Shown here piece by piece: positions 45 to 7,176 of a stretch of DNA of 7,355 nt; position 1 is the first letter of the stretch, and the number at the start of each line of letters is the position of its first letter. Location of the stretch: positions 1 through 7,355 of the forward strand of contig JBFLYA010000187.1 of assembly GCA_040757115.1 (NCBI GenBank), written 5' to 3'. Position numbers and translations under genes: made by a program. The notes under the pieces are model-generated. The model made no database searches, was not told where the DNA came from, and saw only the letters and a program-made list of their open reading frames with translations. Origin of the DNA: a bacterium. GTDB taxonomy: Bacteria > UBA9089 > CG2-30-40-21 > SBAY01.

Positions 45-311
45 TCAAAATTCACTATTACTCAGATTACAAGAAAAATAAATCGGGAATGCAACTTGCA
101 AACCCTTATCCAAGAGCATTTTCATTTGGCATCCTTCATAACCTAAACAATCTCGTAGTAATATGCCACTTTTGGAATTATCAGGATTATCTTTATCGTC
201 ATAAATCTGTAACCACCAGACACCGTCTCCAATGAAATCATCTATATCAAAAGATAAACTGAAATAAAATCTTTCTCCTTCTATTAAAATTTGCTTTAAT
301 TTAGTTGGCAT
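45..311 (-). CDS. Small hypothetical protein downstream of the DNA methyltransferase
   Basis: I do not recognise this 88-residue protein. It begins MPTKLKQIL, has an aromatic and acidic centre (FDIDDFIGDGVWWLQIYDD) and ends in NLSNSEF. I see no signal peptide, membrane segment or catalytic motif. An in-frame GTG lies four codons further upstream at 323, but the ATG at 311 is better: GGAG lies six bases before it (GTGGAGATTACT-ATG). With this start the gene overlaps the last 16 bases of the methyltransferase, so the two are probably translated together. The position suggests an accessory partner of the methyltransferase, for example a restriction or control protein. That is inference from context only. 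At 88 residues it is short for a restriction enzyme. No convincing terminator is visible in the 44 bases beyond its stop. Confidence 0.6.
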   Translation of the reverse strand: MPTKLKQILIEGERFYFSLSFDIDDFIGDGVWWLQIYDDKDNPDNSKSGILLRDCLGYEGCQMKMLLDKGLQVAFPIYFSCNLSNSEF

Positions 312-1381
312 AGTAATCTCCACAATTCTTGTTGGTTTGTCTTTGCTCTTGTTTCTTCAAAATTCTTCACAATAATGCTTTTTAATAAATATCCTCTTTT
401 CAGAACCTCCTGCATACAATAAAAGCCCAAAGGTATCCACTCGCCTTTAGAATATTTATCACCTATTACAAGAGCAAAATATCGTCCCTTTTGTAAATAT
501 GGGGTTACATTATCAATTACTTCTCCGAGCATCTTCAAAAATTCCTCTGTATTTTTCGCATTTGAAAGGTCCCTGCCATCTTTTGAAAACTTAATTATAT
601 CGTGATAAGGAGGATGCATAATGAGAAATTGCACCTGACTTATCTTATATTTGCCAAGAATGGTTTTTATATCGATTGTTCTACTATCTCCAACAATTAC
701 TTCAGAAATTACATCATTTAGGTTCAGTTCTAAGTTGATTAATTCTTTTGCCTTTTCTGCTACTTCTTGATTTAGTTCTATTCCAATGCCATTTCTTCCC
801 AGCCTTCTGCATTCAATCAATGTTGTTCCACTTCCAACAAATGCGTCTAAAACCCAATTTTTCTTTGTGGTATATCTTAGCAACATTTGATGTGGAATTT
901 GGGGGATAAAATTTCCCCAATACCAACCAAGATGAGCACCAGAAGTATCTCTTTTATCTAAAACCCAAAGGCTATCAGTAATAATTTCATCATATTCCTT
1001 CCAGCGAAGAAGATTTATATCATTAATTTTGCTGGTTTTAATCTTTTGGACGCCATTTTCTAATCTTTTGAGATAGTAATTTGCTCTTTCCGATGTTCGT
1101 GCCTCCAAAATTTGATCCAGTTCAGAAACTAAAACATCTTTACGTACAGAAATTGTATCTCCGTTAGCATCAATATTTACAATACCTTCCCTGTCATTCT
1201 TTGGATAAGTTACAATATTTTTCAATCCATTTATTTTAGCTTTCATAGAGTTTAAGTCTTTTAAAGTATCAATCTCACATAACACATTGACAAATTTTTC
1301 TTTGTTTAGAATAATAGCACCATAAGTAAGAGGTATGGTTTCTAAATTTTCAAGTGTTAATTGAGTGTTATTTATTTTCAT
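296..1381 (-). CDS. Amino-type (N4-cytosine or N6-adenine) DNA methyltransferase
   Basis: This 361-residue protein should transfer a methyl group from S-adenosylmethionine to an exocyclic amino group in DNA. Visible motifs are the SAM-binding motif I VLDAFVGSGTTLIE (177-190), acidic motif II IGIELN (199-204), GDSRTID (231-237) and the catalytic motif IV MHPPYHDII (255-263). The segment FIPQIPHQMLLRYT (158-171) in front of motif I looks like motif X. Motif I therefore precedes PPY, the reverse of the beta-class order seen in most N4/N6 enzymes with FxGSGTT. The first catalytic position is His rather than the usual Asp, Asn or Ser. A conserved-looking block, VIGDKYSKGEWIPLGF (305-320), follows. 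Residues 1-125 are unrecognised and may hold target recognition. AGAGG lies 10 bases before the ATG, and the start overlaps the stop of the gltX remnant (ATGA). No restriction enzyme is recognisable. The gene is clearly more AT-rich than hisA. The methylated base and site cannot be read from sequence. Confidence 0.88.
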   Translation of the reverse strand: MKINNTQLTLENLETIPLTYGAIILNKEKFVNVLCEIDTLKDLNSMKAKINGLKNIVTYPKNDREGIVNIDANGDTISVRKDVLVSELDQILEARTSERANYYLKRLENGVQKIKTSKINDINLLRWKEYDEIITDSLWVLDKRDTSGAHLGWYWGNFIPQIPHQMLLRYTTKKNWVLDAFVGSGTTLIECRRLGRNGIGIELNQEVAEKAKELINLELNLNDVISEVIVGDSRTIDIKTILGKYKISQVQFLIMHPPYHDIIKFSKDGRDLSNAKNTEEFLKMLGEVIDNVTPYLQKGRYFALVIGDKYSKGEWIPLGFYCMQEVLKRGYLLKSIIVKNFEETRAKTNQQELWRLLCQLN

Positions 1382-5137: not shown

Positions 5138-5339
5138 TTATTCAGCCACAGATAGACACGGCTGAAACACTGAAAATTCGTAAATCGTGTCCGTAGTTAG
5201 GCTGAAGGTTTTTCCTCCTGTTGTCCTCTGCCCTCTGCCCTCTGCTCTCTGCCTTCTGCCCTCTGCCTTCTGCCCTCTGCCCTCTGTCCTCTATATTTAT
5301 CCCTGCTAATCCGTGTTAATCAGTGGCTGAATAGTTACC
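5133..5339. mobile_element. MITE-like element with 29-bp terminal inverted repeats
   Basis: The left end (5133-5161, AGTAATTATTCAGCCACAGA then TAGACACGG) matches the reverse complement of the right end (5311-5339) at about 23-24 of 29 positions. The shared core is TATTCAGCCAC...GAT...ACACGG. The 207-bp element fills the space between the recG start and the DarT-macro stop. It codes for nothing recognisable. It holds a TAGGCTGAAGG segment (5199-5209) and a 70-bp heptamer array. No target-site duplication is obvious. The 'CAGCCACAGAT...ACACGG' sequence is, from memory, a dispersed repeat in many environmental bacterial genomes. Confidence 0.55.
5225..5294. repeat. Ten tandem 7-bp repeats (CCTCTGC)
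   Basis: Ten consecutive heptamers follow the pattern CCTCTGC, with variants TCTCTGC, CTTCTGC, CCTCTGT and CCTCTAT. On the minus strand this is GCAGAGG/GCAGAAG. It is perfectly in phase for 70 bases, all pyrimidine on the plus strand except for one G per unit. It is untranslated. A related purine/pyrimidine heptamer theme returns in the spacers at 6561-7225. Length should vary between strains by slippage. Confidence 0.9.
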
Positions 5340-5354
5340 TTTGCCATATCAATC

Positions 5355-6530
5355 TTATCCTATTAAGAATTTTTTAGTAAGATATTCTTCAGACATTTTC
5401 TCTTCTGCTGGTAAATATATTCTAACGGAAATGTCTAAATTTTTTAAATATTTACACATTAAAGGCCCAATATCTTGCCACTTTAAATTTCCAAGTCCAC
5501 ACCCAAGAGCAGGTAAAGCCAGAGATTTTATTGCTTCTTTTTTATAATTATCAACTATCCAATTTAGCCCTTTTTCAATCCCTTTTATATCTGCATCTTC
5601 TTTAAAGTGTTGCTTGGTAGGAAATAGAAGAAACCATGTTGCACCATTCCCATTTTTTAATGTAGATGGTTCATCTGCCAATTGATAATCAAGAGAACTC
5701 TCTCGTTTGTAAAGATATGGTTTTCCCATTTGTAATTGTAATGGACGATTTCTGCAAACATATTGGTATTGAACATAGACATCTGGAAACTGCCATTTTG
5801 CACGAGAAGCAAGTCCTTTTCCCATAACACCAACACAATTTACACTTATAGTAAGTGTTTGCATCCTTGAAAAGAACATATCTCCGTCTGTTACATATAA
5901 CAACGGAGTAATTTCTATCTCACGAGAAGGTTTGAAAAACATATTCGGTTGGGGAACAACAGATATAGGGAACGATGATAAAAATTCTTTTATTTTATTA
6001 GCAATATTATGATTTGCAACATAAATTGTATGAATATATTCTGGTGAAATCATATCCGGGACAAGACACTCAGCCATTATTTTCCTTTTATCTCCACTTT
6101 CTTCAGTCCACCATTTTTTATCAAGAACTTCTGTTAATTTATATAGTGTTTTCTTTCCCTCTTTGGCTGGAAGTATTTCTGTAGCAGAACTGGCTGCATT
6201 ACCCGAAGAAATAAAAATATCATTACGATTCAATATATCTAACTTAATAGCGATAACTACAATATCATTATCTGATTTCTCACAGACTACCCTGAATAAC
6301 ATCGGATTTCTTGGTTGAAAATACACATTAGCAAAATCCCATAGATTTCTACCACTGCCATCAGGTATAATTCTATTACGACGATTTTCTATAATCTCTT
6401 TATCATATATGGGTGTATAACTGATTTGGCGTTCTTCTACCTGTTTATGTGACAAAATGCCATTCTTCAATATAGAAGGTAAATTGTCTATGTGTGTAAT
6501 ATAATATAAATGTCTAATTTTAAATGCCAT
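5355..6530 (-). CDS. DarT-type DNA ADP-ribosyltransferase fused to a DarG-type macrodomain
   Basis: This 391-residue protein joins a toxin and its antidote domain. DarT enzymes use NAD+ to attach ADP-ribose to DNA bases and block replication; DarG macrodomains remove it. Residues 1 to ~200 are DarT (DUF4433). They show LYYITHIDNLPSILKNGILS (8-27), NRRNR with Arg51 in the place of the catalytic Arg51 I recall for Thermus DarT, FANVYFQPRNPMLF (66-79) and MAECLV with Glu154 as the catalytic glutamate. The NAD-contact His of YHITH is Tyr10. Residues ~205-375 are the macrodomain, with SVNCVGVMGKGLA (229-241), LLFPTKQHF (301-309, Lys306 probably catalytic) and LPALGCGLGNLKW (339-351). Both halves look intact. 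Known darT and darG are usually separate genes, and DarG has a further C-terminal DarT-binding domain absent here. The ATG at 6530 has GGAAG seven bases upstream. The gene is AT-rich and lies next to repeat arrays. Function is inferred from motifs. Confidence 0.88.
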   Translation of the reverse strand: MAFKIRHLYYITHIDNLPSILKNGILSHKQVEERQISYTPIYDKEIIENRRNRIIPDGSGRNLWDFANVYFQPRNPMLFRVVCEKSDNDIVVIAIKLDILNRNDIFISSGNAASSATEILPAKEGKKTLYKLTEVLDKKWWTEESGDKRKIMAECLVPDMISPEYIHTIYVANHNIANKIKEFLSSFPISVVPQPNMFFKPSREIEITPLLYVTDGDMFFSRMQTLTISVNCVGVMGKGLASRAKWQFPDVYVQYQYVCRNRPLQLQMGKPYLYKRESSLDYQLADEPSTLKNGNGATWFLLFPTKQHFKEDADIKGIEKGLNWIVDNYKKEAIKSLALPALGCGLGNLKWQDIGPLMCKYLKNLDISVRIYLPAEEKMSEEYLTKKFLIG

Positions 6531-6654
6531 ATCTACACTTCCAATGGTTCTCCTAAAAATAGGAAATAGAAAGTAGAGAGTAGAAAGTAGAAAGTAAAGA
6601 AAACATCACTCCTCACGCCTATCTCCTTACCTCCCACCTTCTATCTCCTACCTA

Positions 6655-6710
6655 CTATTTTCATCCTCATTTGTGAACCCACGGTTCATGAGCGTTTCCC
6701 CTGAAAATAA
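6655..6710. repeat. Hairpin element, copy 1
   Basis: The outer arms are CTATTTTCA (6655-6663) and TGAAAATAA (6702-6710), with only the last base unpaired. The inner hairpin is TGAACC (6674-6679), loop CAC, GGTTCA (6683-6688). After it comes TGAGCGTTTCCCC. Confidence 0.75.
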
Positions 6711-6802
6711 GGAAGTAGAAAGTAGAGAGTAGAAAGTAGAAAGTAAAGAAAACATCACTCCTCACGCCTATCTCCTTACCTCCCACCTTCTATCTCCTAC
6801 CA

Positions 6803-6858
6803 CTATTTTCATCCTCATTTGTGAACCCACGGTTCATGAGCGTTTCCCCTGAAAATAG
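6803..6858. repeat. Hairpin element, copy 2
   Basis: The outer arms CTATTTTCA (6803-6811) and TGAAAATAG (6850-6858) pair perfectly. The inner hairpin TGAACC-CAC-GGTTCA (6822-6836) is identical to copy 1. The start of the element is 148 bases from copy 1. Confidence 0.75.
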
Positions 6859-6933
6859 CGAATTAGTGAATTAGAGATTAGCGAATTAGTATAGTATCCA
6901 CAGACTCGTATCCTATGGTGTAGAACAGATATT

Positions 6934-6951
6934 CCCCCTTAATAAAGGGGG
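6934..6951. repeat. CCCCCTT-AATA-AAGGGGG hairpin in spacer 3
   Basis: A perfect 7-bp stem with a 4-base loop is followed by GTTAGGGGGTTG. There is no T-tract after it on the plus strand, so it is not a typical intrinsic terminator. A related C/G hairpin is at 7302-7317. This looks like a dispersed repeat. Confidence 0.5.
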
Positions 6952-6970
6952 TTAGGGGGTTGTTCTTCCA

Positions 6971-7026
6971 TTATTTTCATCCCCCTTTGTGAGCCGCAGG
7001 TTCATGAGCGTTTCCCCTGAAAATAA
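6971..7026. repeat. Hairpin element, copy 3
   Basis: The outer arms are TTATTTTCA (6971-6979) and TGAAAATAA (7018-7026). Both end bases changed relative to copy 2 and still pair. The inner stem is TGAGCC-GCA-GGTTCA, which keeps pairing through one G-T (G-U) wobble. Confidence 0.75.
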
Positions 7027-7118
7027 GGAAGTAGAAAGTAGAGAGTAGAAAGTAGAAAGTAAAGAAAACATCACTCCTCACGCCTATCTCCTTACCTCCC
7101 ACCTTCTATCTCCTACCA

Positions 7119-7176
7119 CTATTTTCATCCTCCCTTGTGTCCACCCCGTGGACATGTCCGGTTCTCCTGAAAATAG
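7119..7176. repeat. Hairpin element, copy 4, with a different inner stem
   Basis: The outer arms CTATTTTCA (7119-7127) and TGAAAATAG (7168-7176) are perfect. The inner stem is TGTCCAC (7138-7144), loop CCC, GTGGACA (7148-7154). Its sequence differs on both sides from copies 1 and 2 and is still perfectly paired. The tail reads TGTCCGGTTCTCC, close to the half element at 6546. Confidence 0.75.

Follow-up and report, generated by a model that had tools for sequence, protein, structure and literature searches.

A natural single-chain fusion of DarT and a DarG-type macrodomain, and the rearrangements within its family

In the two-gene DarT2-DarG systems, such as those of Thermus, Mycobacterium tuberculosis and a number of plasmids (L072-L076, L078 and L079), the DarT gene precedes a separate gene for DarG, a protein of 344-362 aa in which the macrodomain is followed by a C-terminal domain. 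The latter blocks DarT through ssDNA mimicry (PMC11481870), and the Thermus macrodomain is a sufficient antitoxin by itself, provided that it retains K80, a lysine with a described catalytic role; the K80A form does not inhibit DarT (PMC5179494). In DarT1-NADAR, the eraser is a NADAR domain. Toxin and antitoxin may also share one chain, as in CapRel, where a phage protein triggers the fused toxin-antitoxin directly, with the antitoxin retained (PMC9712102). Closest to the gene described here is a protein of Thermosipho africanus, deposited in the PDB as 7OMU under the title 'Thermosipho africanus DarTG in complex with ADP-ribose' and released in 2021, in which DarT and a macrodomain follow each other in a single chain. 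We take this structure to be the one described in Schuller et al., Nature 2021; a literature search for 7OMU, and for Thermosipho together with DarT or DarTG, yielded no paper.

A fused gene of the T. africanus type

In the window, as we call the whole 7,355-nt stretch of DNA analysed, a frame on the minus strand leads from an ATG at 6530 to a stop ending at 5355, through 391 codons and zero internal stops (Table 1). The initial annotation had read it as DarT and macrodomain in one uninterrupted frame, and the profile searches agree: DarT and DarG profiles of NCBIfam and PADLOC are each matched by the protein, and Pfam reports a significant Macro match besides DarT. The motifs on which that reading was based are all found in the protein, with NCVGVMGKG at residues 231-239, FPTK at 303-306 and LPALGCGLG at 339-347, while KIMAECLVP (150-158) contains E154. 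The macrodomain proper extends over about residues 205-375 and resembles that of Taq DarG (5M3E) with a Z score of 17.9; the DarT fold is shared with DarT1-NADAR (8BAQ, Z 17.9), from which the window protein differs in having a macrodomain as its eraser. The DarG profile is matched at positions 3-157 of 338 only, before the protein ends at residue 391, and the C-terminal toxin-binding domain of DarG is absent from the fusions. AlphaFold models of the fusion, obtained from shallow alignments, were of moderate quality at best, with pTM values of 0.62 and 0.72.

Table 1. Coordinates of the fused gene and its features in the window
Feature	Position	Strand	Basis
Fused darT-darG(macrodomain) gene, 391 aa	5355..6530	-	ORF; Pfam, NCBIfam, PADLOC; 7OMU whole-chain match
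DarT ADP-ribosyltransferase domain, aa 9-199	5934..6506	-	PF14487, 6e-51
DarG-type macrodomain and short tail, aa 205-391	5355..5918	-	NF048014, aa 213-383; PDLC02990; 5M3E fold match
R50, equivalent of Thermus DarT R51	6381..6383	-	Alignment; invariant in 25 lone fusions
Catalytic Glu E154, corresponding to Thermus E160	6069..6071	-	Alignment; invariant in 25 lone fusions
Insertion particular to the family, macrodomain aa about 277-297	5640..5702	-	Alignment with split DarGs
Macrodomain catalytic Lys K306, corresponding to K80 of Taq DarG	5613..5615	-	FPTK motif; PMC5179494 for K80 role
GGAAG, probable ribosome-binding site	6538..6542	-	8-12 nt upstream of ATG

The best PDB match is 7OMU, which covers the whole chain (E 2.5e-143) and superimposes over 365 residues with an rmsd of 2.7 (VIA Z 38.9), at 52-53% identity in structural alignments. 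It is of near-equal length, has the same domain order and the macrodomain insertion, and, although named DarTG, is of the same extent as the window protein and so likewise ends without the DarG C-terminal domain; its deposited chain has an alanine, presumably engineered, at the position of E154. The one-chain architecture, presented as if new in the initial annotation, is therefore already known from this structure, and the window gene adds a member. The two-gene DarT2-DarG systems have DarT before the macrodomain as well, and key residues equivalent to those of the window protein in both catalytic domains, but differ in their separate genes, in the C-terminal domain of DarG and in lacking the insertion. 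As the window gene is a single frame rather than separate toxin and antitoxin genes, we place it with the fused T. africanus type, with which it shares the single chain, the missing C-terminal domain, the insertion and the grouping with 7OMU.

Could the frame result from two overlapping genes merged through a frameshift or an assembly error? Split neighbours exist in related genomes (G003 and G017), as would be expected in that case. Against it stand the homologues in other genomes, which are single-frame at 41-96% identity, so that the same residues are by no means always divided between two genes and many assemblies carry both domains in one frame, and the one-chain crystal structure. Nor did the window gene offer a convincing ribosome-binding site for an internal start yielding an intact free macrodomain, and this candidate was rejected. 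The window gene is thus a natural single-chain DarT-macrodomain fusion, an artefact being excluded by the single-frame homologues and 7OMU to the point of deserving practically no weight.

Conserved residues and target base

E154 aligns with the catalytic glutamate of Thermus DarT, as had been anticipated, while the arginine first named at position 51 has to be moved by one: Thermus R51, which has a role in base recognition and proton abstraction (PMC11281641), aligns with R50, and residue 51 varies among the lone fusions, i.e. those that have no separate DarT beside them. R50, E154 and K306 are kept together in 25 of 25 lone fusions, and K306 in all 37 fusions. In a comparison of the window gene with its homologue L017, the DarT half has a dN/dS of 0.16 and the macrodomain half one of 0.11. 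Both halves are thus under purifying selection, and together with the invariant residues of the lone fusions this makes it appear that the family is selected for writing as well as for erasing.

This bears on a reading in which the protein serves mainly as an eraser against foreign DarT while its own DarT half is being lost. Derivatives consisting of the macrodomain alone do occur at a shared locus (see below), and the DarT half evolves faster, with the macrodomain better conserved than DarT in 298 of 300 lone-fusion pairs (mean identity 72%, as against 57%); yet the DarT catalytic residues stand in every one of the 25 lone fusions, and with a dN/dS of the DarT half as low as that given above we regard its decay as highly improbable.

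The position of the thymine-reading histidine of Thermus DarT is occupied by N111 in the window protein, so the target base can only be inferred; it is most likely thymine. An asparagine is also found near the base-reading position in DarT1-NADAR, and a guanine specificity was considered on the strength of N111; it was dropped, as asparagine is apparently also present in M. tuberculosis DarT (7YK3), described as modifying thymidine (PMC12170906), and is hence not decisive.

A further mark of the family is an insertion of about 20 aa, just before the strand leading to the FPTK motif. All fusions have it, as do their macrodomain-only relatives, and 12 split DarGs lack it; in the AlphaFold model with a pTM of 0.72 it falls below a pLDDT of 50. 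What our comparison adds to the known structure is that the fusions are one clade, without the DarG C-terminal domain and with this macrodomain insertion.

Distribution, genomic context and history

A search for the same domain order in other genomes, suggested in the initial annotation, returned one-frame homologues as well as split pairs (G003, G017). The fusion is present in 5 of 386 sampled genomes; a sixth match, in G360, looked fused but is two genes. The identity to the window protein is 96% in G001, 84% in G002 (L017), 70% in SM23_31 (L018), 57% in G009 (L004) and 51% in G057 (L005). In the window's own phylum, 4 of 19 genomes have the fusion and two the split form, and in the phylum of G057, 37 of 84 genomes were matched at E below 1e-60, with 31 places that read through both domains. 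On a viral contig (L025) the fusion lies at the contig end, before a methylase and a type III Res gene, and the matches opened in plasmid records are two genes. The phage contig MT837167, at first a candidate fusion, also has two genes: in L077 (MT837167.1, 1435-3120) those for DarT and macrodomain lie in the same frame, a single stop apart. An arrangement of this type could give rise to a fusion by loss of the stop.

In trees, the fused family falls on one side of a branch separating it from 11 split systems (support 92/89 for DarT and 100/100 for the macrodomain), which fits a single ancient fusion event. In G003 and G017 the split pair, and in G002 the fusion, lie next to similar methylase fragments (about 53-71% identity) and have a common downstream gene (77-90%); L017 and the G002 locus agree in match position and identity. 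Since G002 and G003 share a genus code, fused and split forms occupy the same restriction-modification place within one genus.

The surroundings of the window gene itself speak rather against a defence role. Its neighbours on the 7.4-kb contig are recG and hisA, with no defence gene directly beside it, and an orphan-looking methylase lies about 4 kb away. After this DNA methyltransferase (45-1381, minus strand; PADLOC MTase_II, 5.7e-132) comes a frame of 92 aa that matches no family; the methyltransferase is possibly an orphan or part of a small restriction-modification pair. Directly upstream of the fused gene, 6548-7176 holds three to four copies of a dispersed repeat of about 160 bp, with 69 matches genome-wide, many at 85-98% identity; an Rfam search of the window, this repeat included, returned no family. 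Between recG and the fused gene, an imperfect short tandem repeat rich in CTCTGCC occupies 5220-5290.

A more varied picture emerges in the phylum of G057. Besides lone fusions, it has tandem loci, in which a gene for a separate DarT (212-239 aa) lies immediately upstream of the fusion, and genes that encode a macrodomain alone (about 200 aa). In one genus, all three recur in a slot that borders on a large inverted gene of family F0: a lone fusion in L038-L043 and L045, DarT plus fusion in L049, L051, L053 and L054, and the macrodomain alone in L062 and L064-L067. Loci of each kind are among the several that share an upstream gene for a WYL regulator and one for an AAA_35 ATPase. The macrodomain-only genes fall among the lone fusions in the tree, and inside the fused radiation the main group of tandem fusions is sister to that of their DarT partners (86/80). 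A second tandem, L060, has the same upstream neighbour as L046, a lone fusion from its genus. Two genomes, G420 (L036, L059) and G421 (L033, L056), each carry a lone fusion plus a separate tandem locus.

WYL regulators have been linked to phage defence (PMC9122588, PMC9122601), and although none is present on the window's own contig, their position upstream of homologues at the recurrent locus makes a regulated expression of these plausible. Together with type III restriction-modification, this context of the homologues points to defence rather than to a regulated DNA mark, i.e. ADP-ribose that is written and erased at genomic sites for signalling. In favour of such a mark, M. tuberculosis DarTG has been reported to steer replication and transcription by DNA ADP-ribosylation (PMC12170906), and every lone fusion retains both active sites; but a distribution as patchy as that in the sampled genomes, the restriction-modification and WYL neighbours of the homologues and a toxin part that has been lost or duplicated more than once all suit defence better, making a housekeeping mark of this kind rather unlikely.

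Proposed control of a toxin joined to its eraser

How might a toxin be controlled that cannot be parted from its antitoxin? With both catalytic sites on one polypeptide, release through antitoxin loss is closed to the fusion, as had been noted at the outset. We consider it probable that the T. africanus-type DarT2-DarG fusion is an anti-phage toxin that is kept safe by its tethered eraser and released while the antitoxin stays in place; the activity, base specificity, trigger and anti-phage role of the window protein are inferred. The N-terminal half would transfer ADP-ribose from NAD+ to a base of ssDNA, most likely thymine, and the C-terminal macrodomain would hydrolyse the same adduct via K306. 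As the ssDNA-mimicking domain of DarG is missing, the safe resting state would lie in the 1:1 tethering to an active eraser, possibly aided by extra contacts of the family-specific insertion. Control chiefly by erasing is also what the Thermus macrodomain leads one to expect, since it neutralises via its catalytic lysine and the known binding inhibitor is lacking here. When writing outruns erasing, net ADP-ribosylation would arrest phage or host replication. Such an excess could come from the large amounts of ssDNA in phage replication, from a factor that disables the macrodomain or makes the protein open up, or from induced expression.

CapRel offers a precedent of the same logic for a different mechanism, in which the toxin, with the C-terminal half docked on it, is released through direct binding of a phage protein, and in both cases loss of the antitoxin cannot set the toxin free. 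The macrodomain insertion would be a candidate contact. The CapRel toxin is unrelated, though, and its antitoxin is a binding domain where the window protein has an enzyme (PMC9712102). Moreover, the sensing domain is the least conserved part of CapRel, while here the macrodomain is the better conserved half almost throughout, a pattern that gives no sign of a fast-evolving sensor in that half; we thus hold a sensor of this sort to be quite unlikely.

W64, S229, S242 and Q256 are invariant in the 25 lone fusions, whereas the 12 tandem-group fusions, a count that includes L050 by clade and L057 with only a partner fragment, all have T229, L242 and E256 and, with one exception, L64; T229, and mostly L242, are also the states of split DarGs. 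The three macrodomain residues change identically in two lineages having a separate DarT, as L060 does not group with the main tandem clade when the tandem-residue columns are removed before the tree is built, and takes 5 of 16 tandem-specific states where lone fusions take 0-2. A test by independent pairs had two such pairs only, too few for significance. A short gene conversion around residues 218-256 may explain the states of L060, which over residues 229-260 is 84% identical to L054 and 81% to L046. The pattern gives a hint that residues 64, 229, 242 and 256 matter when an eraser serves its own writer. A loss of the catalytic arginine in tandem fusions was considered and discarded, because a 6-residue insertion renders the column ambiguous, with an arginine one column away; L054 is the only tandem fusion clearly without the catalytic glutamate. 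In the main tandem clade, the separate DarT partners (L049, L051-L056, L058 and L059) have isoleucine or leucine at the position of N111, and may have another target base or sequence. Among the macrodomain-only proteins, L062 and L064-L067 share S229P and mostly S242L, and L064 (3992-4669, minus strand) has MGRG in place of MGKG, suggesting an altered constraint after the DarT half was lost.

Tentatively, and as a possibility we would not yet favour, the fused family could be a self-erasing toxin out of which two-gene systems are built anew: the second DarT of the tandem loci, itself derived from a fusion, would be the toxin and the fusion its dedicated antitoxin, with a retooled DarT domain that perhaps binds the partner DarT; the changes at W64, S229, S242 and Q256 would then mark the switch from self-directed to partner-directed erasing.

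The isolated T. africanus fusion thereby gains a family, a distribution and anatomical marks, having lost the inhibitor domain and gained an insertion, and this family makes it testable how a toxin-antitoxin system works when its two parts are inseparable. In one chromosomal slot of related species it occurs as fusion, as fusion plus separate toxin or as eraser alone, with residues that change accordingly, so that the wider fused family illustrates how a self-contained toxin-antitoxin gets rearranged in evolution.
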